Below are positions 7,894-23,080 of a DNA stretch of 64,000 nt, piece after piece. The position numbers and the translations under genes were made by a program. How positions within the stretch are numbered: position 1 is the stretch's first letter; every line of letters starts with the position of its first letter. The notes under the pieces were generated by a model. It ran no database searches. It had not been told where the DNA came from and worked only from the letters and a program-made list of their open reading frames with translations. Source of the stretch: Natrinema amylolyticum (GTDB taxonomy: Archaea; Halobacteriota; Halobacteria; Halobacteriales; Natrialbaceae); assembly GCF_020515625.1 (NCBI RefSeq), contig NZ_JAIWPJ010000003.1, positions 62,001-126,000 of the forward strand, in the 5' to 3' direction.

Positions 7894-8829
7894 ATGCCAC
7901 TTCGCGTGACGTTTCTGGGGACGGCCGGGGCGATTCCGACGACCGAGCGGAATCCGAGCAGCGTCTTCGTCGCCCGCGAGGGCGAGGGGTTGCTGTTCGA
8001 CGCCGGCGAGGGGACCCAGCGCCAGATGATGCGGTTCGGGACGGGGTTTTCCGTCTCACATCTGTTCGTCACGCACCTCCACGGCGACCACGTCCTCGGG
8101 ATTCCGGGCCTGCTTCAGACGATGGCCTTCAACGACCGCACGGAGCCGCTGGCGATCCACACGCCCCACGGTACGCGCCGGCAGCTCAAGTCGCTCGTCA
8201 ACGCGCTCGACAACCGGCCCTCCTTTCCCGTCCGAATCAGCGAGGTCGGCGGCGGCGACGTCGCCTACCGCGCCGAGGAGTACGAGGTCCGCGCGTTCGA
8301 CACCGACCACGATACCCGCTCGGTCGGCTACGCACTCGTCGAAGACGACCGCAAGGGCCGGTTCGACCGCGAACGCGCCGAGGAACTCGGCGTCCCCGTT
8401 GGCCCCCAGTTCTCGCGGCTCCACGAGGGCGAAACCGTCGAACTCGAGGACGGCACCGTCGTCGATCCCGAGCAGGTCGTCGGCGAGCCCCGTCCCGGCC
8501 GGGCGATCGTCTACACCGGCGACACCCGGCCGGCCGAGGCGACGATCGAGGCCGCCGACGAACCCGACCTGCTGATCCACGACGCGACCTTCGCCGACGA
8601 CCGCGCCGAGCGCGCCGCCGACACCGCCCACTCGACGGCTCGCCAGGCAGCCGAAATCGCGAACCGAGCCGGTGCGGATCGGCTCGCGCTGATGCACCTC
8701 TCCTCGCGCTACGCCGGGCAGACGGACGCCCACCTCGAGCAGGCGCGCGAGGTCTTCGCTGGCGACGAGACCGACGTGTTCGTCCCCGACGACGGACAGA
8801 ACCTCGAGATCGAGTATCCGGACGGCTGA
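7894..8829 (+). CDS. rnz: Ribonuclease Z
   Basis: Metallo-beta-lactamase-fold endonuclease that removes 3' trailers from pre-tRNAs. 311 residues, the normal size of the short form. The N-terminus MPLRVTFLGTAGAIPTTERN and the zinc motif THLHGDHVLGIPGL are diagnostic. Later come YTGDTRP, LLIHDATF (metal ligand Asp) and LMHLSSRY (last His). The AHSTARQAAEIA segment after the DATF motif is typical of RNase Z. The start is supported by an upstream TATA-like element at leaderless spacing. It converges with the neighbouring mannanase gene with only 8 bp between stop codons. Confidence 0.95.
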   Translation: MPLRVTFLGTAGAIPTTERNPSSVFVAREGEGLLFDAGEGTQRQMMRFGTGFSVSHLFVTHLHGDHVLGIPGLLQTMAFNDRTEPLAIHTPHGTRRQLKSLVNALDNRPSFPVRISEVGGGDVAYRAEEYEVRAFDTDHDTRSVGYALVEDDRKGRFDRERAEELGVPVGPQFSRLHEGETVELEDGTVVDPEQVVGEPRPGRAIVYTGDTRPAEATIEAADEPDLLIHDATFADDRAERAADTAHSTARQAAEIANRAGADRLALMHLSSRYAGQTDAHLEQAREVFAGDETDVFVPDDGQNLEIEYPDG

Positions 8830-8837
8830 TCGACGAC

Positions 8838-10325
8838 TCAGACCGTCCGGAGCAGTTCGAGGACGTCGGAAAACCCGACTCGACCGTTCTCGTCGAAGTC
8901 GAACCGTTCGGGATTGTTTTGGACACCGTCGGACTCGAGGTTGTCGAAGAACGCGTCGACGTCCTCGTGGGTCGTCTCCCCGTCACCGGTGACGTCGTCG
9001 TAGCGTCCGTCGCCGGTCGCGTCTCTGGCTTCGTACTCGCCGACCGGGATCGTCTCTGGGTCGGAATCGTCCTCATCACCGCTCTTCTCCGCGACGACCG
9101 CCGCGTACTCCTCGATGAGATGGCCGGACTCGCTCGCGTAGAGCTGGAACCCGTCGTGGTCCTCGGTGTCCTCGAGGACGACCTGCCACGGGAGGACGGC
9201 GTTGCAGTCGTACCCGTCGGCGACGTCGTACCACTCCGCGAGGGACTCGTTTTTCGTCTCGAGGTCGTGCTGGGTATCGTCGACGTTGAACTCGCCGAGA
9301 TAGGCGGGCTTGCCGATCTCCTCGTGGGCGTCGACGACGCGGTCTCGGATGTACTCGGCCCCGTCCTCGAGCGGAAGGTCCCAGTGATCGGGATAGAGGT
9401 GGAACGAACAGGCGTCGATCGTATCGATCGAGTGGTGTTCGATGTAGTCCTGGCCGTCCCAATCGTCGTTCGGGTAGTCGTCCTCCCACGTCCCGTAGTA
9501 GTGGCCCTCCGATCCCGTCGAGACGAGGTGATTGCCGTCGATATCCTTGATGTATGCGGACATGTCGGCGAACCAGTCGCCGAGGATCTCGCGGTGTTCG
9601 GGCGGCTCGAGATCGTCCATCTCTTCGGGAACGTCGTCCTGCTCGAGACGTGGTTCGTTGGCCAGTTCCCACAGCGCGATCGTCGGATCCTCGCGCCATT
9701 CGATCCCGCTGATCGAGTTCTCTCGCGTGAGGATCGTTTCGACGTGATTGCGGTACATTCCGCGCGTCTCGTCCATCGTGTAGAACTCGTAGCGTGACTC
9801 GGCACCCGCCCACTCGGCGTACTGGAGCATCCCGCCCTCGTGGTCCCAGTTGTCGACGAGCGTCGCGATGAGCCTGATCCCGCGGTCTCTGGCGGCCTCG
9901 ATCAGGTAATCGAGGTTCTCGAGGGCGTCCTCGTTGTACTCACCGGGTTCGGGCTGGAGTGCGAGGGGACCGTCTTTGGCCTCGCCGTGCGCCCAGAACC
10001 GAACGAGGTCGATTCCCAGGTCCTCGTAGAGATCGAAGACGTCGTCGATGCGCTGCTCGGTCCCCTCGTACTCGTGGGTGATCCAGAAGTTGTTCGCACC
10101 GTTGAAGTAGACCGGGTCGCCGTCGACGACGAACTCGGTACCGTCCGTCTCGACGTATGCGAGGTCGTCGGGGTCGGTCGTCGGTTCCGTCGCGGCCGCC
10201 GCCGTGCTGGCGGCGAAAGGGGAGATCACCGCGCCCGCACCGATCGCTTTCACGAAGCGGCGCCGCGTCGGTCCGTCCCGTCGATCGATTCCGTACTCGT
10301 CCGCCGTGCGTTCGTCCGAAGTCAT
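8838..10325 (-). CDS. GH5 endo-beta-mannanase-like hydrolase with Tat signal and C-terminal dockerin
   Basis: 495 residues. Twin-arginine signal at 20-46 (TRRRFVKAIGAG). The GH5 barrel spans about 55-415 and looks like subfamily 7 (beta-1,4-mannanase): FVVDGDPVYFNGANNFW, acid/base Glu224 in WELANEP, CSFHLYPDHWDL, nucleophile Glu345 in YLGEFN. An acidic linker then leads to a dockerin at about 428-495: boundary VGEYEARD, calcium loop 1 DVTGDGETTHED, helix, calcium loop 2 DFDENGRVGFSD, closing DVLELLRTV. Last gene of the minus-strand cluster, 91 bp after the preceding GH5. Secretion and mannan cleavage are inferred; other beta-glucan activity is possible. Confidence 0.9.
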   Translation of the reverse strand: MTSDERTADEYGIDRRDGPTRRRFVKAIGAGAVISPFAASTAAAATEPTTDPDDLAYVETDGTEFVVDGDPVYFNGANNFWITHEYEGTEQRIDDVFDLYEDLGIDLVRFWAHGEAKDGPLALQPEPGEYNEDALENLDYLIEAARDRGIRLIATLVDNWDHEGGMLQYAEWAGAESRYEFYTMDETRGMYRNHVETILTRENSISGIEWREDPTIALWELANEPRLEQDDVPEEMDDLEPPEHREILGDWFADMSAYIKDIDGNHLVSTGSEGHYYGTWEDDYPNDDWDGQDYIEHHSIDTIDACSFHLYPDHWDLPLEDGAEYIRDRVVDAHEEIGKPAYLGEFNVDDTQHDLETKNESLAEWYDVADGYDCNAVLPWQVVLEDTEDHDGFQLYASESGHLIEEYAAVVAEKSGDEDDSDPETIPVGEYEARDATGDGRYDDVTGDGETTHEDVDAFFDNLESDGVQNNPERFDFDENGRVGFSDVLELLRTV

Positions 10326-10416
10326 GTGTTCAGGTCCTCGTCGATCGTTCAGTGTCGTATGGCTCGCTCACCGGTCGGGTCGTGATCCGTAGATTCGTCG
10401 ACGTCATCGATGAGCC

Positions 10417-11925
10417 TCAGGTCCGCCGGAGCAGTTCGAGGACGTCCGAGAACCCGATTCGACCGTTTCCGTCGAAGTCGAACGCCTCGGGGTTCTCCTG
10501 AACGCCGTCGGATTCGATGTTCTCGAAGAACGCGTCGACGTCCTCGTGGTTCGTCTCTCCGTCTCCATCGACGTCGTCGTACAGCCCGTCGTCGTTCGTG
10601 TCCCGGGCCTCGTAGTCGCCGACCGCGATCGCGTCGCTTTCGTCGGTGCCACCGCCGCCGATCACGTCGTCTTTCGTCTCCTCGAGCCACTCGCGGACGA
10701 ACCAGCCCATCTGTTCGGGATCGTCTTTGAGCTCCCACGGCTGGCCGGCCCCGTCACCGGGCGAGTCGAAGAACGTGGGCGCCCACGTATCGTCGAAACA
10801 CCAGGCGATCCAGCCCATGTTCTCGGAGGACTCCAGCCACTTGCGGACGGGTTCGCCCCACCCGCTCGTCGTGCCGAACTCGACGCTCTCCCGGAACTCC
10901 TCGTCGGGATCCCAACCGAATTCGGTGATGATGACCGGGATCTCCTCGGCGGGCGCACCGTACTCGGGATCGAACGGGCCGACTTCGTACGTGTCGCCCT
11001 CCTCACCCCGCTCGAGCGTGTCGTATGGGAGGCCGTTGTCCGGGTAGATGTGGCCGGAATAGATCAGGTTCTCCCCGTCGAAGGGGTACTCGGCGGCGAA
11101 TTTCGTTCGGGAGGTCCAGTCGGGCGACCCGATGACGATCGGCGTCTCGGGTGCCTCGTCCCGGATCGAGTCGACCCACGGCTGAGCGGTGTCGCGCCAG
11201 AGCAGCCACTCGTCTTCCCTCGTCTGGACGTCCGGACCGTGTTCCCCGTAGGTCGACCACGTGACGGGGAGCGTCGGTTCGTTGAAAAGTTCGAAGAGAA
11301 CGTTTTCGTCGTCGGCGAAGGCCGGCGCGACCGCGCTCCAGAACTCCGTCAGCAGGTCGTCAGTGTCGACGCGCGGATCGAAGCCGAGGCCGTCGAGACT
11401 GTCCGCCCACTCGTCCTCGACCATCCCTTCCCCGTGGGCCATCGCCTCCACGTACGGCCGAATGATGTGGAAGTCGATCATCGCGTAGACGCCCCGATCG
11501 GCGAGCAGATCGACGGCCGGACGCAGGAGGTCGTCGACGACGTATTCCATCCCGCGGTCGTGGACCGCGTCTTCCCCTACCGGCAGCCGAACCGTGTTCG
11601 GGTGCCACTGCTCCCCGTCGGTCGCCTGCTCGAGGATCTCTCGCTGGCCTCTGGGGTGTATCGACTCGAGGTAATCCAGCGACGCCGGTGAGACGCCGCG
11701 GGGTTTCACCCGTTGTCCGTCCTCGGTCACGATCCACTTCCCGTCGGTTCGCAGGCGCGGCGTCGGATCCCCGACCGCCGCTGCCGATCCCGCCAGCCCG
11801 CCGAGTGCGAGGCCGGCCGTTCCGACGCCCGCCGCTTTCACGAACATTCGTCGCGTCGGTCGCCACGACTGCCGGTCCGCTCGGTCGGGTAGCCGCTTCT
11901 CGCCCGCACGATCATCGTGACTCAT
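10417..11925 (-). CDS. GH5 cellulase-like hydrolase with Tat signal and C-terminal dockerin
   Basis: 502 residues. Tat signal at 22-50 (TRRMFVKAAGVG). The GH5 domain covers about 58-420: IVTEDGQRVKPRGVSPASL at the start, acid/base Glu216 in FELFNEP, nucleophile Glu335 in VIITEFGWD, Trp-rich WIAWCFDDTWAPTFF near the end. A GGGGTDES linker precedes the dockerin (about 434-502), with calcium loops DVDGDGETNHED and DFDGNGRIGFSD. Loop 1 differs from its sisters in having Asn before His-Glu. The promoter region just upstream is an AT-rich island. GH5 family is certain by motif; cellulose or beta-glucan as substrate is inferred. Confidence 0.9.
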   Translation of the reverse strand: MSHDDRAGEKRLPDRADRQSWRPTRRMFVKAAGVGTAGLALGGLAGSAAAVGDPTPRLRTDGKWIVTEDGQRVKPRGVSPASLDYLESIHPRGQREILEQATDGEQWHPNTVRLPVGEDAVHDRGMEYVVDDLLRPAVDLLADRGVYAMIDFHIIRPYVEAMAHGEGMVEDEWADSLDGLGFDPRVDTDDLLTEFWSAVAPAFADDENVLFELFNEPTLPVTWSTYGEHGPDVQTREDEWLLWRDTAQPWVDSIRDEAPETPIVIGSPDWTSRTKFAAEYPFDGENLIYSGHIYPDNGLPYDTLERGEEGDTYEVGPFDPEYGAPAEEIPVIITEFGWDPDEEFRESVEFGTTSGWGEPVRKWLESSENMGWIAWCFDDTWAPTFFDSPGDGAGQPWELKDDPEQMGWFVREWLEETKDDVIGGGGTDESDAIAVGDYEARDTNDDGLYDDVDGDGETNHEDVDAFFENIESDGVQENPEAFDFDGNGRIGFSDVLELLRRT

Positions 11926-11929
11926 AGTC

Positions 11930-11985
11930 TACCAAGTAGTATATATTATTTTCATATAAAATTTTCTCTAAATAAAATATTTTGA
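11930..11985 (-). promoter_or_regulatory. AT-rich promoter island before a GH5 gene
   Basis: An unusually AT-rich run (containing AAGTAGTATATATTATTTTC and TAAATAAAATATTTTGAG) directly upstream of the start codon at 11925, in otherwise GC-rich DNA. Several TATA-like elements fit a promoter for minus-strand transcription. Similar islands precede the scaffoldin-like gene and the first GH5 gene of the cluster. Confidence 0.55.
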
Positions 11986-12092
11986 GAACGGTCACTCTGG
12001 AGCGGTCAGTCCGCTGGAACGGTATCCGATCGCAGCCGGATTGACGGTTCGAGAGATCGACTAGCGACCGATTCCGTTCGGCTCGGCTACTG

Positions 12093-13631
12093 CTAGACGC
12101 GCCGGAGCAGTTCGAGGACGTCAGAGAACCCGGTTCGACCGTTTCCGTCGAAGTCGAACGCCTCGGGGTTCTCCTGGACGCCATCGGACTCGAGGTTGTC
12201 GAAGAACGCGTCGACGTCCTCGTGGGTCGTCTCTCCGTCGCCGGTGACGTCCTCGTAGCGTCCGTCACCATCTGTGTCCCGGGCTTCGTAGTCGCCGACC
12301 GCGATCGAATCCGAACCGTCGGTCGTCTCGGGGAGGTCGTCGGTGCGTCGATCGGCCAGATACGTCTGCCACCACTCGCCCTGATACTCCTCGCCGCCGA
12401 GGAGTTCCCACTCCAGGGAATCGTCGTCGGAGTCGAACATGGTCGGCTGCCAGGCCGGGTCGAAACACCAGATCTGCGGGTGAACGGTGTCGTATTCGTC
12501 GAAGAACGCCTCGAACATCGCGCCGTGTTCGGACGTCGTCCCCGTGAGGGGGGTCCCGGCATCGCCCTGGTAACCGAACTCCGTGAGGAACACCGGAACC
12601 TCCTCGGACGGCTCGCCGAAGTAGTCCCCGAGCGGTCGCAGCCCGTCGTGGCCGGCGTACACGTGGCCCGCGTATGCGAGATTTTCTCCCTCGAACTCGT
12701 GGCGCGGCGCCCAGTAGGTGTACTGGCTCCATCGCGGCGAGCCGATGATGACGACGTTGCGCTCGGCGTGATCACGGATGGCGTCGACCCACGGTTGGGC
12801 GGTCTCGCGCCACTGGAGCCAGGTCTGCTCGGCGTCGGCACCGCGAACGTCGTACTCCTCGCCCGGCTCCTGGCCGGCGTAGGGACCGATCGGCTCGTTG
12901 TACACCTCGTAGAGGACGTGGGAGTCGTCGGCGAACTCGGGCGCGACGGTGTTCCAGAACAGCCGGACCTCCTCGTCGAGGTCGGGATCGGTGTACTCGA
13001 GACTCGTGTCGGAGTGTCTATGGTAGTCGACGATACAGTAGACGCCGACCGCCTTACAGTGCTCCACGACCGGTCGGAGGTGATGCTCGACGTAGGCCTC
13101 GAGTTGCGTCCGCGTGAACGTTCCCGGGTCGACTTCGTTCTGCGGTTCATCGCTCACGCTGCCGTCGTCCGGGTCGACGGAAACGATGTCTCCGGTCTGG
13201 ACCGGGATGCGGATAATCCGCGCGTACCAGTTCCTGTCGGGGTCGGTCGCGTGGTCGATCGTCTCCGAGAGCGGCCGCCGCCACGACCGCGCCGTGCGCG
13301 CGGGATCGATCACGTTGACGCCGCGGAGCACGACCTCGTTTCCGGTCGGATCGCGGAGCACGTTCCCGTCGCGCTCGAGCCACGGCGTTTCGATTCCGCG
13401 ATCGGCCGCGCCGTCGGCGGCGCGTGCGGGATCGGCCAGCAGACTGGCCGCGACGCCGGTCGTGCCGACGCCGGCCATCGCGAGAAAGCCCCGTCGGGAG
13501 TGGCGCATGCCACCTGATCTGGGATCGCTCGGCCCGCCACCGTCGATCGCGTTCGGTGGCGATCGATTGGCATGAGTCGTTGGATCGTCCCTGTTCCGTT
13601 CTCGTCGCGTCTCGTGGTCGTTCGTGGTCAT
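12093..13631 (-). CDS. GH5 cellulase-like hydrolase with Tat signal and C-terminal dockerin
   Basis: 512 residues from the ATG at 13631; the Tat motif (HSRRGFLAMAGVG, 44-56) lies unusually far in, so Met42 at 13508 is an alternative start. The GH5 domain covers about 85-430: GNEVVLRGVNVIDP, VDYHRHSD, acid/base Glu246 in VYNEP, GSPRWSQYTYWAP, nucleophile Glu351 in FLTEFGY, IWCFDPAWQPTMF. The dockerin occupies about 444-512, with loops DVTGDGETTHED and DFDGNGRTGFSD. The catalytic domain closely resembles that of the first cluster gene at 18613-20472 (shared GSPRWSQYTYWAP and FGEPSE), pointing to duplication within the cluster. Confidence 0.9.
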   Translation of the reverse strand: MTTNDHETRRERNRDDPTTHANRSPPNAIDGGGPSDPRSGGMRHSRRGFLAMAGVGTTGVAASLLADPARAADGAADRGIETPWLERDGNVLRDPTGNEVVLRGVNVIDPARTARSWRRPLSETIDHATDPDRNWYARIIRIPVQTGDIVSVDPDDGSVSDEPQNEVDPGTFTRTQLEAYVEHHLRPVVEHCKAVGVYCIVDYHRHSDTSLEYTDPDLDEEVRLFWNTVAPEFADDSHVLYEVYNEPIGPYAGQEPGEEYDVRGADAEQTWLQWRETAQPWVDAIRDHAERNVVIIGSPRWSQYTYWAPRHEFEGENLAYAGHVYAGHDGLRPLGDYFGEPSEEVPVFLTEFGYQGDAGTPLTGTTSEHGAMFEAFFDEYDTVHPQIWCFDPAWQPTMFDSDDDSLEWELLGGEEYQGEWWQTYLADRRTDDLPETTDGSDSIAVGDYEARDTDGDGRYEDVTGDGETTHEDVDAFFDNLESDGVQENPEAFDFDGNGRTGFSDVLELLRRV

Positions 13632-13697
13632 GGTCGTGTGCTGTCTCGCTGTCGTCGCGATCGCTGTCTCGGTCGCTCGTCGCTGCTCGGCCGCCGG

Positions 13698-13904
13698 TCA
13701 GACGTCCCGAAGGAGCTCGAGGACGTCCGCGAAGCCGACGCGGCCGTTTTCGTCGAAGTCGAATGCGTCGGGGTTGTCCCGGACGCCGTCGGCCTCGAGG
13801 GTCTCGAAGAAGGCGTCGACGTCCTCGTGGGTCGTCTCCCCGTCGCCGGTGACGTCTTCGTACAGGCCGTCGCCGTCCGCGTCCCGACTCCGCCACCGAC
13901 CCAC
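13698..13904 (-). pseudogene. Orphan dockerin module, remnant of a lost dockerin-bearing gene
   Basis: A 68-codon open frame from a GTG at 13904 that encodes only a dockerin. It begins at VGRWRSRD, which aligns with the VGDYEARD boundary seen in all five intact genes. Calcium loops DVTGDGETTHED and DFDENGRVGFAD and the ending DVLELLRDV follow. An in-frame stop lies two codons upstream (13908-13910) and there is no signal peptide or catalytic domain. The remnant sits 16 bp after the preceding GH5 stop codon. It is best read as the scar of a deletion or of recombination between near-identical dockerin sequences; an unexported decoy peptide is less likely. Confidence 0.75.
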
Positions 13905-13920
13905 CGCTCACCGGTTGCGC

Positions 13921-15975
13921 TCAGATCTTCCGCAGCAGTTCGAGGACGTCCGAGAACCCGATTCGACCGTTCTCGTCGAAGTCGAACTGCTCGGAGTTGT
14001 TCTGGACGCCGTCGGACTCGAGATTCTCGAAAAGCGCGTCGACGTCCTCGTGGCTCGTCTCTCCGTCGCCGGTGACGTCTTCGTACAGGCCGTCGTCGTC
14101 CGTGTCCTGGGCCTCGTAGTCACCGACCGAGATCGTCTCGTTGCCGACGGGACTCGTGTCGAACGGCACCTGATCGTCCCTGTGATCGGCGAGCATCTGC
14201 TTGAGGTAGACGCCGCTGTCCTCGCCGCCGATCAGGTTCCACTCGCATGGCGGCTCCTCGCAGCCGACCGGAATGTCCTCGAACGGCGTGTCGTAGAAGT
14301 TGTCGTTGACGAGGTCGAGTTCGCCCTCCTCGGTCTCCCACGGAACCTCGAACATTTTCGGCAGCCAACGGACGTCAGCACACCAGCCGACCCAGCTGAC
14401 CCGGTCATCCCCCTCGACCTGATCGAGGAACGGTTCACCGTACTCGGGGAGCGTACCCTGACCGGTGGTCGTTCCGCGCAGCCAGTGGGAGACGTCCGCG
14501 TTGTTGATCCAGCCGAACTCGGTGATGGCGACGGGGTGATGATCCATCGCGTTCTGCAGTCCCGCCGCTTCGTAGGCCTCCCAGCCGTAGCACGACTCCT
14601 CGTAGGGGTCGTCATCCACCGGGAGATAGGGGGCCTCGAGTTCCTCTCCGGTCTCGGCCTCGACGGCATCGGGACTCTGGTACTCCGTATCGTTGAACCA
14701 GTTGTTCATCTGGCTGACGTCGTGGCCCGCGTAGTTGTGCCAGGTGACGGCGATGTTGTCGTAACCGGCCTCGTTGAAGTTCCGCCAGTGGAGCGCCTGC
14801 ACCGACTGACACCAGCCGGGAACACCGACCAGCAGCACGCGGTCGGACTGATACTCGCGGATCTTCTCGATGATCGGGCCCATGAAGTCGTCGAGGAACG
14901 TGTCCCAGAGGGGCTTCTGTTTGTACGCTCCACAGCCCTCGACGGGACCCCAGATGCCCGGCGCGGTCGGCTCGTTGTACGGCTCGAAGATCACGTGGGG
15001 TTCGTCGGCGTACCGCTCGGCCACCTCGTCCCAGAACATGAGGACCTCGTCGAGCAGTTCCTGGTTGACCGTCCAGTTCTCGTACGCGTACGGCGTGCCC
15101 TCGAGGTTACCCTCGTTGAGACCCTCGACGTAGTCGTCGCCGGGCGTTTCCTGAATGTACGTCTGATCGACGTATCCCCAGGAACCCGGCGCGTCCTCGC
15201 CGAACATCTCGTGGCTGTTGTACGCCCAGTAGTTCGTGTAGTCGCTGTCGTACGGCAGGTGGTTCTCGGCGTAGGAGGGTTCCTCGATGCCCGGCGGCTG
15301 CTCGTGCCAGTGGCGGTGATAGTCGATGATGCAGTAGACGCCGCGCTCCTTGCAGCGCTCGACGATCGGTTCATAGTAGTTGTCGAGGTAGTCCTCGAGT
15401 TCCGCCTGCGTGAACGCCTGCGGCTGGGCCGGCCGTTGCTTCCGTCGATCGCTGTCGACCGCCTGCGGTGACTCGAGTTCGCCGTACTCGTACTCGGGGC
15501 CGGTGTGGCCCATGGGGTGGTGTGACCCGTCGTCCCTCGTGCCGATGTCTTGTGGTTGGGCGGGAACACGGATGACCCGCGGATGCCAGCCCGCCTCGTT
15601 GTTCGTCACCAGATCGAGGAGCTGTTCCGGCGTCTTCCCGCGAAGGTTCCGCGTCCGGTGGAGTCGCTTCGGATCGGGAATGCTGAGTCCCCGCATCTTG
15701 AACGTCTCGCCGTCCTCGTTGACGATCCGGTTGTCGTCGCTGACAGTCAGGTTCTGGAACTCGTCGATCCCGCCGGCCGCGGCGGTACCGGCGAAGCCGG
15801 CGCTCAGTCCGAGGCCGGCGACGCCCGCGGCGGCGGTCGTTCGCATCACGTTGCGCCGCGTGACCGAGATCGGCGACGTGCCGTCGGTCTCCGCCTGCGC
15901 GAGGACGCTCCGTCGCGTGTCCTCGTTCGTCGCTGTCGATTCGTCCGTCTGCTGTGTGGTGTCAGTCGGTTGCAT
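13921..15975 (-). CDS. Large GH5 hydrolase with Tat signal and C-terminal dockerin
   Basis: 684 residues, the largest of the five. Tat-type signal at about 38-68 (VTRRNVMRTTAAAG) after a hydrophilic 37-residue leader. The GH5 domain covers about 75-600: GETFKMRGLSIPDP, IIDYHRHWH, acid/base Glu335 in EPYNEPTAP, nucleophile Glu486 in AITEFGWI, VGWCADVRWLPKMF. Insertions at about 225-300 and 430-475 make it longer than its sisters. The dockerin (about 616-684) has loops DVTGDGETSHED and DFDENGRIGFSD and boundary VGDYEAQD. It lies directly downstream of the cohesin protein gene, 213 bp away. Substrate specificity cannot be read from sequence. Confidence 0.9.
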   Translation of the reverse strand: MQPTDTTQQTDESTATNEDTRRSVLAQAETDGTSPISVTRRNVMRTTAAAGVAGLGLSAGFAGTAAAGGIDEFQNLTVSDDNRIVNEDGETFKMRGLSIPDPKRLHRTRNLRGKTPEQLLDLVTNNEAGWHPRVIRVPAQPQDIGTRDDGSHHPMGHTGPEYEYGELESPQAVDSDRRKQRPAQPQAFTQAELEDYLDNYYEPIVERCKERGVYCIIDYHRHWHEQPPGIEEPSYAENHLPYDSDYTNYWAYNSHEMFGEDAPGSWGYVDQTYIQETPGDDYVEGLNEGNLEGTPYAYENWTVNQELLDEVLMFWDEVAERYADEPHVIFEPYNEPTAPGIWGPVEGCGAYKQKPLWDTFLDDFMGPIIEKIREYQSDRVLLVGVPGWCQSVQALHWRNFNEAGYDNIAVTWHNYAGHDVSQMNNWFNDTEYQSPDAVEAETGEELEAPYLPVDDDPYEESCYGWEAYEAAGLQNAMDHHPVAITEFGWINNADVSHWLRGTTTGQGTLPEYGEPFLDQVEGDDRVSWVGWCADVRWLPKMFEVPWETEEGELDLVNDNFYDTPFEDIPVGCEEPPCEWNLIGGEDSGVYLKQMLADHRDDQVPFDTSPVGNETISVGDYEAQDTDDDGLYEDVTGDGETSHEDVDALFENLESDGVQNNSEQFDFDENGRIGFSDVLELLRKI

Positions 15976-16188
15976 TGGTATTTCCTTACTGGATTCGCGT
16001 GTCTGCGCGTGCTTCGTCCGCCGTCTCTGCGAGCCGCTATATTTCGACTCCAGTTCTGCGTTAAAATTGGTTTAATCCGAGTCGTGTGAGTCGAGTCGGT
16101 CGTTCCCGGTATCGGGATCGGGATCGGATCGAGGCCGTCAGGTTCGAGCGGCGACCCGCGACGAGAGTCCCGACACCGGAACGCGCGA

Positions 16189-18444
16189 TCAGGCGACCGT
16201 GATCTCGACCTCGTGAGTGGTCTCGCGTCCCCGCTGGTCCGTCGCAGTGAGCGTCACCGTGTAGCTCCCACTGGAATCGTAGGAGTGGCCGGCGTACCAG
16301 CCGCTGGCAGTCGTTCCGTCACCGAGATCCCACTGAAGTTCTGTAGTCCAGATATCGTCGGGGGTTTCGTCCGTCACCCGGAAGTCGATGCGCTCGCCGG
16401 CGTCGACGTCCGTGGCGCTCGGATCGATCGTCGCCAGATGGTCTACCTCGAGCGGGATCTCGCCGTCGACCGGCTCCCACGCGTAGAGCTCCTCGTAGCG
16501 GGGCTCTTTGTCCTTGTTCGTCCACTGTGCGACCCAATCGTCACCGTTCCAGTGGACGCGGTCGCCCTCCTGATAGAGCGTGTCAGCGTCCCACTCGGGA
16601 TAGTCGCTGTCACTTCCGTCGCCGTCGCCATCGTCCGCGTCCGCGGTCGTGGCAGTCACCGTCGCGGCGTCGGTCTCCGTGCCGTCTTCACCGACGGCGC
16701 TGACACCGATCTCGTAAGAAGTTCCGGCCTCGAGGTCAGTGACGGTGATACTGGTCGAACTCAGGGTCGTCTCTCGCTCGCCGTCGACCCAGACGTCGTA
16801 CTCGACGGCGTTCGGATCGGAACTCCACGCGACCTCGACCGACGTCTCGTTTTCCGCGACGACCTCGAGTCCCTCGGGCGTGCTCGGCGGCGTATTGGCT
16901 TCCGCGGTCGTGGCAGTCACCGTCGCGGCGTCGGTCTCCGTGTCGTTCTCGCCGAGGGCACTGACACCGATCTCGTAGGTGGTACCGGACTCGAGGTCGG
17001 TGACGGTAGCGCTGCTCGCAGTCGTGGTGGTTTCCCGCTCGCCATCGACCCAGACGGTGTACTCGACGGCGTTCGGGTCGGTATTCCACGCCAGTTCGAC
17101 CGACGTCTCGGTCTCGGCGACGACCTCGAGATTCTCGGGGACGCTCGGCGGTTCGCCGTCCGGCTCGCCGTCGCCGACGGTGAGCATCGCCTCTTCGACC
17201 GTCGGTTCGATAGCAACGTTGTCGACATTGTCCTCGAGTCGGACGATGTCGACGTCGACGACGGTTTCGCCGTCTGCCACGCCGGCGAGTTCGATCCGAC
17301 CGAACTCGATATCAGTGGTCCCGGCGTCGACGGGATCGAGCGCCTTGAGTTTCGCATAGTCGTCTTCGACCTCGACGGTCTTGAACATCTCCTGGGCGTC
17401 GACGAACAGGTCGCCGAGTTCGGCGTCAGTGAAGGTCGCGACGTCGGGATCGATACCGACCTCGAGAGTGAATCCGACCACACCATCCGGCGCTTCGCTC
17501 AGGCCGAGATCGACGGCCGTCGTCTCGTCCGGATCGATCACCGCGTCGTCGAGGTTGACCGTGAGCGTGGGCGTCTCCGGCTCCGCACCGGTGACCGTCG
17601 TCGCCTGAACCGTCGCCGTCTCGGACGCCGTGTCGTCCTCGCCGAGAGCGGTGACACCGATCTCGTAGGTGGTGTCTGCTTCGAGTCCAGTGATGGTCGC
17701 GCTGCTCGAGGTCGTGGTAGTTTCCCGCTCGCCGTCGACTGAGACGGCGTATTCGACGGCGTTCGACACGGGACTCCACGCGACCTCGACCGACGTCTCG
17801 TTCTCGGCGACGACCTCGAGATCCGACGGCAGTGTGGGTGCGACTGGCTCGTCGATACCGTCACCGACCGTCAGCGTCGATACGTCGTAGTTGGCGTCGT
17901 AGATATTGTCTCCGTTGGGGATGGTCAGCATGATATCCACGAGTTCGATCTCGGTGGTGCCCTCACCCTGAGCCTCGAGGTGGTAGGTCGCCACCTCGTA
18001 CTCGGTCTCGCCGATTCCGTCCGGCGCGTACGGCTGGACGCGGAGTTGCGAGACGGAGCCGCCCGCCTCTTCGATATCCTCGTTGACGCTCTCCTCTAAA
18101 TCGAGGGGACTCTCCGGGAAGTAGTCGCCACCGTCCACCTGGGTGATCTGGGCGACATCGGGATCGAGCGCGATTTCGACGGCAGAGCCGATCGAACTAG
18201 CGGGGGAGTTTTCGAGCCGGACCGTCGCAGTCGTCGTCTCGCCGGATTGGATCTGCTCATCGGCGACGTCGACCGTCACCGTCGGGACGTCTGCCTGGGC
18301 CGCCACCGTCGATGTCCCGAGTGCGAGTGCACCCGCACTGGCACCGGCGGCCCGCATGAAGGTGCGGCGTGATGTAGACGTGTCCGTCGAGCGATCGGTT
18401 TCGGCGAACTGTTCCTCGTCGTGCGTGTCGATGGTATCGTTCAT
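16189..18444 (-). CDS. Scaffoldin-like protein: two cohesin-like domains, FnIII, CBM5/12-like and PKD domains
   Basis: 751 residues, non-catalytic. Order: Tat signal (TSRRTFMRAAGASAG, 24-38; cleavage near 50); cohesin-like 1 at 53-194 (VTVDVADEQIQSGETTTATV, EIALDPDVAQITQV); FnIII 203-284; cohesin-like 2 at 291-425 (GVVGFTLEVGIDPDVATFTD); FnIII 433-513 and 519-601; Asp-rich linker; aromatic CBM5/12-like module at 615-658 (YPEWDADTLYQEGDRVHW, WTNKDKEP, YAWEPV); PKD 664-751 (WDLGDGTTASG, GSYTVTLTATD). There is no C-terminal anchor, so the protein would be released or held on polysaccharide by the CBM. Flanked by dockerin-bearing GH5 genes, it fits a scaffoldin that binds two enzymes. Cohesin calls are by eye. 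Confidence 0.85.
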   Translation of the reverse strand: MNDTIDTHDEEQFAETDRSTDTSTSRRTFMRAAGASAGALALGTSTVAAQADVPTVTVDVADEQIQSGETTTATVRLENSPASSIGSAVEIALDPDVAQITQVDGGDYFPESPLDLEESVNEDIEEAGGSVSQLRVQPYAPDGIGETEYEVATYHLEAQGEGTTEIELVDIMLTIPNGDNIYDANYDVSTLTVGDGIDEPVAPTLPSDLEVVAENETSVEVAWSPVSNAVEYAVSVDGERETTTTSSSATITGLEADTTYEIGVTALGEDDTASETATVQATTVTGAEPETPTLTVNLDDAVIDPDETTAVDLGLSEAPDGVVGFTLEVGIDPDVATFTDAELGDLFVDAQEMFKTVEVEDDYAKLKALDPVDAGTTDIEFGRIELAGVADGETVVDVDIVRLEDNVDNVAIEPTVEEAMLTVGDGEPDGEPPSVPENLEVVAETETSVELAWNTDPNAVEYTVWVDGERETTTTASSATVTDLESGTTYEIGVSALGENDTETDAATVTATTAEANTPPSTPEGLEVVAENETSVEVAWSSDPNAVEYDVWVDGERETTLSSTSITVTDLEAGTSYEIGVSAVGEDGTETDAATVTATTADADDGDGDGSDSDYPEWDADTLYQEGDRVHWNGDDWVAQWTNKDKEPRYEELYAWEPVDGEIPLEVDHLATIDPSATDVDAGERIDFRVTDETPDDIWTTELQWDLGDGTTASGWYAGHSYDSSGSYTVTLTATDQRGRETTHEVEITVA

Positions 18445-18545
18445 TGATGTCTCTCCGTATCAGTTACTGTCGTCACCTGTACTACCTGCTCGCGCCTCGA
18501 GACCGATCCGAGACGGCCGTTCGTGGGAGTCGGCCCGAGAGAGTT

Positions 18546-18597
18546 TTTGTGTTTTTTAATAATAAAATTTTTCATAGTATACTACTTAATAATTCCT
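18546..18597 (-). promoter_or_regulatory. AT-rich promoter island before the scaffoldin-like gene
   Basis: A long T- and A-rich run (GTTTTTTAATAATAAAATTT) ending in the perfect 10-bp palindrome TAGTATACTA at 18575-18584. It lies about 100-150 bp upstream of the start codon, so a leader of roughly 80-100 bases is implied if this is the promoter. No other TATA box is nearer. Confidence 0.5.
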
Positions 18598-18612
18598 GCT
18601 CAGAGTTGCCGG

Positions 18613-20472
18613 TTAGGTCCGACGAAGCAATTCGAGAACGTCCGAGAAGCCGATTTGGCCGTTCTCGTCGAAGTCGAAGGCGTCGGGATTGTCCTGAACG
18701 CCGTCGGACTCGAGGTTCTCGAAGAAGGCGTCGACGTCTTCGTGTGTCGTCTCTCCGTCTCCGTCGACGTCGTCGTACAGCCCGTCGTCGTTCGTATCCC
18801 GCGCCTCGTGGTCGCCGACCGAGATCGTCTCGTCGCCGTCGATCGGACCGGGACCGACGTGTTTGTCGTTCTTCCCGTTGTCGGCGTCCGGATACGGGTC
18901 CTCGCCGGGCGCGATGGTGTCGCGGTCGCCGGCCAGTTCCTGATTCAGTTCGTGCCACCAGACGCCAGGCGTCTCGTCGTTCAGGTAGTTCATCCAGTCG
19001 TCGGCACCCTTCGCGCCGTCGTTCGCGCCCGGCGTCCCGTGTTCGAACATATTCGGCTCGTAGGTGTGGTCGAACGACCACGCCAGCGGGTGGACGTCGT
19101 AGTTCTCGATGAACTCCTCGTACTCCTGGATGTAGGGCTCACAGTCGCCACCGTGTTCGCCGCTACAGTCCATCCAGGGCGTATCGACGTGGTTGCCGCC
19201 GCCTTCGATCCACCCGAACTCGCTGAAGAAGACCGGGACGTGTTCGGACGGTTCGCCGAAGTACTTCGACAGCGGCCGTAGGTTGTCCTGCGTGTAGACG
19301 TGGGCGGTGTAACACATGTTCTCGGCGTCGAACTCGTTGTACGGCGCCCAGTAGGTGTACTGGCTCCACCGCGGACTCCCGATCGTGATCAACTGACCGT
19401 CCGCGTTGTTCTCGACCGTATCGACCCACGGCTGGGCGCGATCGACCCACAGGTCGTACCAGGCTTTCATGTCCTCGTGGGCGACGTCGTAATCGTCCGC
19501 CTCCCCACTGCCGGGCGCTACCGCCGGGTCAGAGAGTTCGCCTGCCTGTCGCTGCGGGCCGCCCCAGTCGCCGCCGTACGGGCCGGTCGGCTCGTTGTAG
19601 ACGTCGAAGATCACGTGGTCGTCGCCGGCGTACCGACTGGCGATGACCTCCCAGAACATGTGTAACTCCTCGTCGAGCGCGTTCGTAATCTCCGGCGGCT
19701 CGAGGTAGATGTCGTCTTCCTCGAGGTCGAACGCCTCGAGGATGTTCTGTTCGTGGATCAGGTCCCAGATCTCGTCGACCTGGTCCTCGCCGTGCCAGAG
19801 CACGCCCCGCTCGCCACAGACTTCGGGATGTCGCCAGTCCTCACCGCCATCGGACGAACACTGCCAGACGGTCGGGTCGACGCCGTGATTCTTGTGGTCC
19901 TCCTGATGGAAGACCGGGTAGTGACGATGGTAGTCGATCATCACGTAGGCGCCGCGCTGGGCTCCGAGTTCGACGAGATCGTCGAGGAAGGCCTCACAGT
20001 ACCATCTGAGGTCGTCCCTATCGAACTGGCCCGGCAGGGCCGGGCCCCAGTCGTCGTCGTGGGGCATCTGTCCCGGTTGCGGATTGCGCGTCGCTGCGGC
20101 GATGAACGCGGGCATTACCGGCACCCGGACGATGTTGGTATGCCACCCCTGGCTCTCGTCGGTGGCCAGCCTGAACGTCTCGGGAGCGGTCTGGCCCCGC
20201 CAGTTACGGCTCTGTTCACCCGGGTCGGCGATGTTCACACCCCGAAGGATGACCTCGTTTCCGTCCGGGTCGACGATCTGGTTTTCGTCCCGGGCTAACG
20301 GCGGGAGAGTGGCTTCCTGTGCTGCTACAGAGCTCGTGACGCTACCGAGACCGCCGAGTGCGAGCACGCTCGTCCCCGTGGCCTGTAGTATCGTTCGGCG
20401 TGACCTCGAGAGATCCCGACTGGTGCGATTCGACTGTGCCTCTGAATCGTGTAAATCCGTATTCTCTGACAT
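18613..20472 (-). CDS. GH5 cellulase-like hydrolase with Tat signal and C-terminal dockerin (first gene of cluster)
   Basis: 619 residues from the ATG at 20472. An upstream extension to 20634 is possible but would place 54 odd residues before the Tat signal. Tat motif SRSRRTILQATG at 22-33. The GH5 domain covers about 58-510: GNEVILRGVNIADP, MIDYHRHYP, acid/base Glu294 in DVYNEPTGPYGG, GSPRWSQYTYWAP, nucleophile Glu418 in FFSEFGWI, LAWSFDHTYEPNMF. It carries Cys pairs absent from its shorter sister at 12093-13631. A linker leads to the dockerin (about 551-619) with loops DVDGDGETTHED and DFDENGQIGFSD. It is followed by the scaffoldin-like gene 168 bp downstream. Confidence 0.9.
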   Translation of the reverse strand: MSENTDLHDSEAQSNRTSRDLSRSRRTILQATGTSVLALGGLGSVTSSVAAQEATLPPLARDENQIVDPDGNEVILRGVNIADPGEQSRNWRGQTAPETFRLATDESQGWHTNIVRVPVMPAFIAAATRNPQPGQMPHDDDWGPALPGQFDRDDLRWYCEAFLDDLVELGAQRGAYVMIDYHRHYPVFHQEDHKNHGVDPTVWQCSSDGGEDWRHPEVCGERGVLWHGEDQVDEIWDLIHEQNILEAFDLEEDDIYLEPPEITNALDEELHMFWEVIASRYAGDDHVIFDVYNEPTGPYGGDWGGPQRQAGELSDPAVAPGSGEADDYDVAHEDMKAWYDLWVDRAQPWVDTVENNADGQLITIGSPRWSQYTYWAPYNEFDAENMCYTAHVYTQDNLRPLSKYFGEPSEHVPVFFSEFGWIEGGGNHVDTPWMDCSGEHGGDCEPYIQEYEEFIENYDVHPLAWSFDHTYEPNMFEHGTPGANDGAKGADDWMNYLNDETPGVWWHELNQELAGDRDTIAPGEDPYPDADNGKNDKHVGPGPIDGDETISVGDHEARDTNDDGLYDDVDGDGETTHEDVDAFFENLESDGVQDNPDAFDFDENGQIGFSDVLELLRRT

Positions 20473-21103
20473 GGTGTGATTCTCGTCCCCATCGAACGAG
20501 TCCGTGATCCGTCCGTTGGGAACGCCGAGGGTTTCGACCCCTCTCGATCTATGATCGATCCATACAGTTATAAAATTTGTGTGTTTTATGTTGAATATTA
20601 TGTTTAAGCAGTACAAAAATAAATATGTTGACAATCAATAGATTACATACGTTAGTAGCAAAATCAGCCCGTCCTATTTCCTATATTTGGTTGACACTAC
20701 ATAAAATCGATATACGGACCTGTCGTCCACTTTCACTGAATAACGACACAGATTCGATAGGCGGCAAAAATATACTATATATTATATTTATATTATTATA
20801 TAATATTTGTCTCAGAAATGGGTGTGTGATGATTCTTAATTTACATCTTTGCGGAGTGAGTGTCGCGACCGAGACGAGTTCCGAGAAAGCGGAAAACACC
20901 TGGTTTTCCGGGCGGTTCGATGCCAAACGAGAGTCCCCATCCACGGTATCGAGACCGCGGGAATCGACGTCTTCATCTACATTTACGTCCACTTTCAGTA
21001 GTTGACGGCCGGGGCTGGCCGCTCGATTCGGGTGACAGTCACGACGCAACGCCAACTGAGTGGCCGCGCCGGATTTATAGCTACCTCGTTCCTATGGCCC
21101 CCT
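20473..21103. other. AT-rich intergenic region between the cellulase cluster and the DUF460 gene
   Basis: About 630 bp with no convincing gene. A stretch from about 20560 to 20860 is extremely AT-rich, peaking at 20766-20812 (AATATACTATATATTATA and similar). TATA-like TTATAAAATT near 20570 could drive the first GH5 gene with a leader of about 70-80 bases. The base composition breaks sharply with both neighbours and may mark the edge of an acquired block. Confidence 0.6.
21074..21079 (+). promoter_or_regulatory. TATA box of the DUF460 gene
   Basis: TTTATA about 28 bp before the GTG at 21104; this spacing fits a leaderless transcript and supports that GTG as the real start. Confidence 0.6.
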
Positions 21104-23080
21104 GTGAGTACGCGAACGAGTGCGCTCGATGCAGTCGTCTTCGGTGTCGACATCCAGAGCGGTGACGTGCGCGGTGATGCGCCGTCGTACGCACTAGCGG
21201 TCTACGACGGCGACGATGTCACCCGGGACGTCGTCACCCACCGGAAACTCAGGCGACTGATCGACGACGAGGAGCCGGCGATCGTCGCGACTGACAACAT
21301 GTACGAGTTGGCCGCCGACAAGGACCAGCTCATCCACTTCCTCGGATCGCTGCCCGCCGGAACAACGCTCGTCCAAGTGACAGGTGCCGAACAGCCCGAG
21401 CCCCTCTCCCGCGTCGCGAACCGCCACAACGTCCCCTACGGGAAGGATCCGATGCAGGAGGCCGAGGCCGCCGCCCGACTGGCCGCCCACAACGTCGGCC
21501 ACGAGGTATCGGCCTTCACCGACACGACCGAGGTCAAGGTCGCGCGCGGCCGCTCGACCGGCAGCGGCGGGTGGAGCGAAGACCGCTACACTCGCCGTAT
21601 CCACGGCTCCGTCAGGAAACGAGCCCGCGAGGTCGAGTCCGAACTCGAGGCGGCCAACCTCGAGTACGAGCGGGAGGTTCGGGAGGCCTACGGCGGCTTC
21701 GCGAACGCGATCTTCACCGTCCAGGCTCGACCCAGTGACATCCCGGTCTCCCGCAATCGATCGGGCGACGTCCGCGTCGAGATCGAGCGCGAGCGCCGCG
21801 ACGGTATCGAGTTCGAGCCGCTCGTCAAGCGCCGCGATCACGTGCTCGTCGGCATCGACCCCGGGACGACGACCGCCGTCGCCATCGTCGGCCTCGAGGG
21901 CGAGGTGTTAGACGTCTGGAGTTCGCGAACCAGCGACACCGCCGACGTGATCGAGTGGATCGTCGAGCGCGGCCGACCGATCGTCGTCGCGGCCGACGTG
22001 ACGCCGATGCCCGAAACGGTCGAGAAGTTCCGCCGGAGCTTCGACGCCGCGGGCTGGACGCCCGAGAGCGACCTCCCGGTCGACGAGAAGCAACACCGCA
22101 CGCGCGATCATCCGTACGACGACGATCACCAGCGCGACGCGATGGCCGCCGCGCTGTACGCCCTCGACGCCCACGCGGACCAGTTCGAGCGAATCGCCGA
22201 CAAACTCCCGCCGGGAATCGACCGCGGCGAAGTCACCGCCCGCGTCGTCGCCGACGAGGAGAGCGTCGAGGCCGTCCTGACGGAGCTGAACGACGACGAG
22301 AGCGGCGACGACGAGGAGTCGACCGAACACGAACCCCGCGAACTGAGCGAGGAAGAAAAACGGATCAAGGACCTCGAGCGACAGGTCGAACGGCTCCAGT
22401 CGCACGTCGAACGGCTCGAGGGCCGCGTCGAGGACCGCGACGATCGAATCGACGAACTCGAGACCGAACTCGGCGTCGCCCGCCGCGAAGAGCGCAAGGA
22501 GGTCCGCCGGGATCGGGAAGTCAGCAGACTCGAGCGGAAGGCCAACCGACTCGAGCGCGAGCGCGACGAGGCCCGCGAGGAGGTCGAGACGCTTGAGAAG
22601 AAGGTCGACCGCATGAAGGCCCTCTGGAAGCTCGATCACTCGAACTTCAGCGACGTCTCCGCGGAGAAGGAGGGACTGGTCCCGGTCAAGGTCGTCGAGA
22701 AGTTCACGAAGGGCGCGATCCGCGAGGCCGACGAGCAGTACGGTATCGCGAGCGGCGACGTAGTCTACATTCGAGACGCCAGCGGCGCGGGCCGATCCAC
22801 GGCCGAACTGCTCGCGGAGTTCGACCCTCGCGTCATCCTCAAGGACGGCGGCCTCTCCCAGATCGCCGACGAAATACTCTTCGAGAGCGAGATTCCGGTC
22901 GGGCCCGCCGACGACGTCGCCATGCAGGAGGTCGACGAACTCGCCGTCGCCCGCGAGGACGACGTCGAAGCCGCGATCGACGACTGGCACGAACGTGCCG
23001 AAGATCGAAAGCGGGATCGCAAAGCCGCGATGGTCGACCAACTCATCAGCGAACACCGCGCGGGCGACAACGAAGTGTGA
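21104..23080 (+). CDS. DUF460 protein: RNase H-like domain plus long coiled coil
   Basis: 658 residues from the GTG at 21104 (leaderless spacing to a TATA box; an upstream TTG would add 34 unlikely residues). The N-terminal part, about 10-240, starts with VVFGVDIQSGD. An RNase H/RuvC-like segment follows, with VGIDPGTTTAVAIVGLEG near 250 and PYDDDHQRDAMAAALYAL near 345, the DUF460 pattern. Residues about 420-510 form a charged coiled coil (KDLERQVERLQSHVERLE), and a conserved globular tail follows. Found across archaea; no proven function was recalled. The fold hints at nucleic-acid binding or cleavage. Confidence 0.85.
   Translation: MSTRTSALDAVVFGVDIQSGDVRGDAPSYALAVYDGDDVTRDVVTHRKLRRLIDDEEPAIVATDNMYELAADKDQLIHFLGSLPAGTTLVQVTGAEQPEPLSRVANRHNVPYGKDPMQEAEAAARLAAHNVGHEVSAFTDTTEVKVARGRSTGSGGWSEDRYTRRIHGSVRKRAREVESELEAANLEYEREVREAYGGFANAIFTVQARPSDIPVSRNRSGDVRVEIERERRDGIEFEPLVKRRDHVLVGIDPGTTTAVAIVGLEGEVLDVWSSRTSDTADVIEWIVERGRPIVVAADVTPMPETVEKFRRSFDAAGWTPESDLPVDEKQHRTRDHPYDDDHQRDAMAAALYALDAHADQFERIADKLPPGIDRGEVTARVVADEESVEAVLTELNDDESGDDEESTEHEPRELSEEEKRIKDLERQVERLQSHVERLEGRVEDRDDRIDELETELGVARREERKEVRRDREVSRLERKANRLERERDEAREEVETLEKKVDRMKALWKLDHSNFSDVSAEKEGLVPVKVVEKFTKGAIREADEQYGIASGDVVYIRDASGAGRSTAELLAEFDPRVILKDGGLSQIADEILFESEIPVGPADDVAMQEVDELAVAREDDVEAAIDDWHERAEDRKRDRKAAMVDQLISEHRAGDNEV

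Follow-up and report, generated by a model that had tools for sequence, protein, structure and literature searches.

A haloarchaeal cluster of five dockerin-bearing GH5 enzymes and a predicted two-cohesin scaffoldin that probably encodes a minimal cellulosome-like complex

The window that we analyzed is a 64,000-nucleotide stretch of the Natrinema amylolyticum genome (contig NZ_JAIWPJ010000003.1, positions 62,001 to 126,000). Positions 8838 to 20472 of the window contain a compact cluster of six open reading frames (ORFs), which encode five glycoside hydrolase family 5 (GH5) enzymes, designated a to e, that each end in a dockerin, and one scaffoldin with two predicted cohesins. An ORF check of the window confirmed the coordinates given here and placed all six ORFs, with the domains that they encode, on the minus strand. 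The six proteins all have the RR motif of a twin-arginine translocation (Tat) signal, and all are strongly acidic, with aspartate plus glutamate making up 20 to 26% of residues.

Assignment of the five enzymes to GH5 is based on a Pfam search, in which PF00150 scores above its cut-off in every one, and on the presence in each of both catalytic glutamates, the acid/base within N-E-P and the nucleophile within [TSG]-E-F. Enzyme a (8838 to 10325, with its dockerin at 8841 to 9062) matches PF00150 at E = 1.9e-9, has its glutamates at E224 (NEP) and E345 (GEF), and has GH5 mannanases as its best PDB matches (E = 3e-57), which is consistent with an endo-β-mannanase type. The other four are endoglucanase-like: enzyme b (10417 to 11925; dockerin, 10420 to 10641; PF00150 E = 1e-27; E216/E335) matches cellulases in the PDB at E = 1e-13, enzyme c (12093 to 13631; dockerin, 12096 to 12317; E = 3.4e-24; E246/E351) matches cellulases at E = 7e-15, enzyme d (13921 to 15975; dockerin, 13924 to 14145; E = 1.1e-18; E335/E486), which has long insertions, matches endoglucanases at E ~1e-8, and enzyme e (18613 to 20472; dockerin, 18616 to 18837; E = 5.6e-18; E294/E418) matches cellulases at E ~2e-8, some of these PDB matches being weak.

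In each enzyme, the dockerin makes up the C-terminal ~62 residues and contains two calcium-loop motifs. PF00404 covers ~55 residues at the C terminus of every enzyme at E = 0.0003 to 0.04 (3.4e-4 for enzyme b), with scores that straddle the curated cut-off, three window copies passing it in the genome scan. Our own dockerin profile, which was built partly from the window copies themselves, detects each of the five with E values of 1e-37 to 1e-39 (4.7e-39 for enzyme a). PF00404 also matches 18 of 20 aligned dockerins at E ≤ 0.01, and the loop residues are invariant, which identifies these domains as type I dockerins. The structural model of the enzyme e dockerin has a predicted local distance difference test score (pLDDT) of 93.9. 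Five GH5 enzymes that retain both catalytic glutamates, a two-loop dockerin at the end of each, and six Tat signals on one strand had all been described in an earlier, sequence-only reading of this stretch, and these descriptions hold.

The scaffoldin (16189 to 18444) consists of a Tat signal, cohesin 1, an Fn3 domain, cohesin 2, two more Fn3 domains, a CBM5/12-like carbohydrate-binding module, and a PKD domain (Pfam fn3, E = 7e-23; PKD_4, E = 1e-14), and it has no catalytic domain, no dockerin, and no obvious membrane anchor. The analysis of this layout included an alignment of the scaffoldins of six genomes, and the ~140-residue cohesin region is present in two or three copies in the homologous scaffoldins. 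The CBM5/12-like module (16477 to 16596) is a probable polysaccharide-binding module. Cohesin 1 (17848 to 18300) and cohesin 2 (17158 to 17586) are 28% identical, and phmmer finds each with the other at E ~1e-8. Neither is matched by NCBIfam, and a single-sequence PDB search with the scaffoldin returned just Fn3, PKD, and similar matches; in a PDB profile search, cohesins rank top at E = 0.07 to 0.28, which is not significant alone. The AlphaFold model of cohesin 1, calculated from a 13-sequence alignment, has a pLDDT of 86.2 and a predicted template modeling (TM) score of 0.82. Each of the top 50 PDB entries that Foldseek lists for this model is a cohesin or a construct that contains one (E = 2e-8 to 1e-6; query TM score, 0.57 to 0.67), and cohesins from C. 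thermocellum, R. flavefaciens, and A. fulgidus are among them. Cohesin 1 is thus predicted to have the cohesin β-sandwich fold; the model settles the fold, and binding is a separate matter. The alignments place cohesin 2 as a probable cohesin by its homology to cohesin 1. Chance resemblance was rejected on the basis of the predicted structure and of synteny. The noncatalytic protein with two cohesin-like domains and binding modules that the sequence-only reading had described is therefore borne out by the predicted fold and the mutual match, its CBM5/12 module scoring below cut-off. To that reading we add the three Fn3 domains, the CBM5/12-like and PKD modules, the mannanase type of enzyme a, and a sixth dockerin copy.

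The cluster, which is flanked by an RNase Z-like ORF (7894 to 8829) on one side and a large ORF (21002 to 23080) on the other, is syntenic in Natrinema and Halopiger, and its homologs are rearranged in Natronobiforma cellulositropha. The enzyme e gene, whose ORF in the window shares one reading frame with that of the scaffoldin, directly precedes the scaffoldin gene in N. ejinorense, N. salsiterrestre, H. goleimassiliensis, and four further genomes (G122, G179, G211, and G324), and dockerin-bearing genes continue after this pair. In N. cellulositropha, the gene that comes after an enzyme e homolog encodes a GH5 protein that has at least 5 cohesins and is truncated by the contig edge (L039:3-3563), by its domain content a predicted catalytic scaffoldin; a single-cohesin gene lies just before it. 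The sixth dockerin copy (13701 to 13913, minus strand; own profile, E = 6.5e-34; one TGA) has no catalytic domain and begins immediately beyond the end of the enzyme d ORF, stop codons separating the two. A degraded dockerin fragment occupies the equivalent place in N. ejinorense (L034:6328-6600). This orphan suggests either that a sixth enzyme has been lost or that a dockerin was duplicated. Together with the presence of just two cohesins in the scaffoldin, it could also mean that the locus is a decaying, nonfunctional remnant of a formerly larger system. However, the six ORFs are intact, the catalytic residues are conserved, and several species have retained the cluster; the catalytic domains of enzymes d and e are 86 to 97% identical among the Natrinema genomes compared. 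We consider a remnant highly improbable, and we rejected a vestigial system as the principal interpretation on the grounds that every one of the six ORFs is intact and conserved.

The dockerins and the catalytic domains to which they are attached have different patterns of identity. Among paralogous enzymes of one genome, dockerins are 68 to 90% identical and catalytic domains 31 to 41% identical, while orthologs from different genomes have catalytic domains that are 60 to 87% identical and dockerins that are 45 to 79% identical. For 15 of 21 dockerins, the nearest relative belongs to another enzyme encoded in that genome; in the same comparison, the nearest relative of every catalytic domain is in another genome. 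Such homogenization within a genome is expected if the dockerins share cohesin partners. Across eight genomes, cohesins diverge fastest (mean identity, 53%, compared with 64% for dockerins and 82% for catalytic domains), and cohesin identity correlates with dockerin identity at a Spearman coefficient of 0.57, compared with 0.34 for cohesin and catalytic domain, although these pairs are nonindependent and the correlation is supportive only. Cohesins and dockerins also occur together. Among 125 genomes of the family, 58 have a dockerin, 57 a cohesin, and 53 both; among 391 Halobacteria genomes, 120 have both, 3 a cohesin alone, 46 a dockerin alone, and 222 neither (Fisher P = 2e-57, a test that ignores shared ancestry).

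These patterns bear on the possibility that the dockerin is a calcium-stabilized tag for substrate binding or stability and that the scaffoldin functions separately in carbohydrate binding or adhesion, with no interaction between them. Substrate binding has been called the likely role of such a haloarchaeal dockerin (PMC13260240, citing PMC10963439), and EF-hand proteins are also matched by our dockerin profile. Against a tag of this kind stand the genuine cohesin fold of the partner domain, the co-occurrence of the two domains across genomes, and the homogenization of dockerins over unrelated enzymes of one genome. Furthermore, in enzyme e homologs from Halosimplex, Actinarchaeum, and related genomes, the match ends at about residue 516, ahead of the dockerin, and the neighborhoods examined contain no cohesin or dockerin, so that GH5 homologs without a nearby cohesin also lack the dockerin. 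We regard the tag explanation as improbable.

We conclude, with a probability of roughly 0.83, that the products of this locus form a minimal, secreted complex of enzymes held together by cohesin-dockerin pairing, a small, cellulosome-like assembly for high salt. We infer its binding, stoichiometry, substrate, and activity in brine as follows. The Tat pathway would export the scaffoldin and the five GH5 enzymes, four endoglucanase-like and one of mannanase type, and the calcium-binding C-terminal dockerin of each enzyme would dock on one of the two scaffoldin cohesins. Each scaffoldin would present at most two enzymes drawn from the five, and two sockets with five plugs would give mixed small complexes. 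The CBM5/12-like, PKD, and Fn3 modules would hold the assembly on cellulose or on mannan-containing fiber, where it would act as a small cellulosome adapted to high salt, as the haloarchaeal host and the very acidic proteins suggest.

Several results weigh against this conclusion. The Pfam cohesin model PF00963 is absent from the scaffoldin even at E ≤ 1, because the model does not reach these cohesins. The sequence-only reading had proposed a profile search of the six proteins, and this search found GH5 and dockerins in all five enzymes and no PF00963 match; that reading was to fall if the cohesins had neither structural nor profile support, and while it is literally true that no curated profile matches, the predicted structure supports a cohesin. 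PF02839 (CBM_5_12) matches the scaffoldin at E = 0.0013 and 19.2 bits, below the curated cut-off of 26.2 bits, and a homolog in one relative (G320) reaches 24.0 bits. The top six Foldseek matches of the dockerin model are dockerins, but they are weak (best E = 0.46), and the best PDB sequence matches of the dockerin profile are the EF-hand proteins. The 46 of 391 genomes with a dockerin alone have no detected cohesin of this type. Finally, the five dockerins have just two cohesins between them, and the cluster lacks a surface anchor. The locus is a minimal scaffoldin system rather than a large conventional cellulosome. The self-contained polysaccharide-degrading complex of the sequence-only reading fits the predicted fold, the dockerin motif, the gene order, the co-occurrence, and the homogenized dockerins, but in a minimal form, the large versions being found in relatives.

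It could also be that cohesins and dockerins do pair but that the main role of this pairing is to keep individual enzymes at the cell surface through membrane-anchored one-cohesin proteins rather than to build multienzyme complexes. In several relatives, a single-cohesin protein of 242 to 278 amino acids adjoins the scaffoldin, some with a weak, sub-cut-off PGF-CTERM match, and elsewhere in the window genome a PhoX-type phosphatase (PF05787) with a cohesin and a dockerin (L006:7153-9945; C2, about 331-335 kb) is adjoined by a single-cohesin, PGF-CTERM-like protein (L006:6401-7189). In contrast, an anchor of this kind is absent from the window cluster, the scaffoldin there has two cohesins, and scaffoldins of relatives have 3, 5, 8, or 10 per chain; multiple cohesins in one chain imply the loading of multiple enzymes. 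We therefore think it quite improbable that surface holding is the main function. The only cohesin of the window genome that Pfam recognizes (PF00963, E = 4e-7) is in another protein, at L001:1327-2139, which has a signal-like N terminus and a PGF-like C-terminal tail.

Small sets are common in Halobacteria, many genomes typically having one dockerin and two cohesins, and these sets recur in many Natrialbaceae genomes; in the window genome, the PhoX-type phosphatase and its single-cohesin neighbor make up such a set. Much larger sets also exist. A 2.7-Mb genome from another halobacterial family (G003) has 70 dockerins and 15 cohesins, and dockerins number 47 in N. cellulositropha, 32 in G296, 29 in G295, 20 in G320, and 16 in G265. 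Among the dockerin proteins sampled, most are GH5; GH9, GH10, and GH81 also occur, as do polysaccharide lyases and carbohydrate-binding modules. The scaffoldins of G296 (2,104 codons, 10 cohesins; L068:5156-11467) and G295 (1,801 codons, 8 cohesins; L070:1976-7378) are both headed by a GH5 domain, and each is followed by a single-cohesin protein of 262 to 278 amino acids with a PGF-CTERM match below cut-off and, further along, by a protein that combines a single cohesin with a single dockerin. By their domain composition, the single-cohesin PGF-CTERM-like proteins are candidate anchors and the cohesin-plus-dockerin proteins candidate adaptors. In G265, which belongs to a different haloarchaeal family, there is a five-cohesin protein of 1,040 codons (C1:2396347-2398536).

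Cellulosomes have been described from anaerobic bacteria and fungi. Our results suggest that cellulosome-type machines probably exist well outside these groups, and we think it likely that haloarchaea hold a separately elaborated cellulosome lineage whose complexes are exported by Tat and work at high salt. These would extend from minimal forms with two cohesins to GH5-headed scaffoldins with 8 to 10 cohesins, with adaptors, archaeosortase-type anchors, and up to ~70 dockerin proteins, and would have escaped notice because their cohesins are not recognized by standard models. If this is true, the presence of such a system in cultivated haloarchaea, one of them a proven cellulose grower, would alter the view of where enzyme complexing evolved, help to explain how haloarchaea attack insoluble cellulose, and offer candidate salt-stable cohesin-dockerin pairs for designer complexes.

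A search for cellulosomes in >305,000 genomes with standard profiles found them in bacteria only (PMC11557425). Of the genomic features used in that study, at least one fusion of a dockerin to a glycoside hydrolase is present here as five dockerin-GH5 proteins, and a protein that has a minimum of two cohesins is present as the scaffoldin (cohesin 1 by predicted fold, cohesin 2 by homology). In the conventional cellulosome of the same study, the primary scaffoldin has more than two cohesins, whereas the window has two. N. cellulositropha is among published cellulotrophic strains (PMC10267330), and the main text of that paper on haloarchaeal cellulose use contains no dockerins or cohesins. Our search of full-text literature on haloarchaea with cohesin and dockerin gave no relevant paper; subscription papers, supplements, and preprints were outside it, and an earlier report is possible. 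Published work has noticed some haloarchaeal dockerins and read them as substrate binding, and we found none that reports the cohesins.

In Archaeoglobus fulgidus, a protein with a cohesin and a dockerin is presumably encoded beside a cohesin protein, much like the PhoX pair of the window genome, and we know of no multicohesin scaffoldin or glycoside hydrolase cluster in that organism. Its cohesin 2xdh, which the PDB title calls noncellulosomal, is an archaeal cohesin that matches the cohesin 1 model at E = 2e-7. Like the window system, the simple cellulosomes of Clostridium and Ruminiclostridium (CipA type; PMC11557425) have a noncatalytic multicohesin scaffoldin with a binding module, clustered with dockerin-bearing glycoside hydrolases. 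The window system differs from them in its haloarchaeal host, its Tat export, its two cohesins, which are too divergent for PF00963, and its scaffoldin, in which CBM5/12-like and PKD modules, along with Fn3, replace CBM3 and X2; some haloarchaeal relatives differ further in the GH5 domain that heads their large scaffoldin. According to passages of PMC9012536 that cite Peer 2009, archaea with dockerins or cohesins are held to lack multicohesin scaffoldins, with the exception of anaerobic methanotrophic (ANME) archaea. These have scaffoldin-like proteins with up to 5 cohesins as well as dockerin proteins, but dockerins there are commonly carried by S-layer proteins and by the substrate-binding proteins of transport systems rather than by cellulases. 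A published haloarchaeal GH5/GH10 island, that of Natronoglomus mannanivorans, also has type I dockerin proteins (PMC10963439). There the dockerins are listed as putative carbohydrate-binding-type domains, the cohesins, scaffoldin, and anchor are unrecognized, and the text mentions neither cohesin nor cellulosome. Its gene order of GH5, a 1,755-amino-acid "GH5/CBM6" protein, a 258-amino-acid "S-layer glycoprotein," and GH5_7 resembles the order of enzyme, scaffoldin, single-cohesin protein, and enzyme in G295 and G296. A haloarchaeal cellulosome would also bear on annotations that are now spreading: the dockerin as substrate binding, a probable scaffoldin as GH5/CBM6, and a probable anchor as an S-layer glycoprotein.

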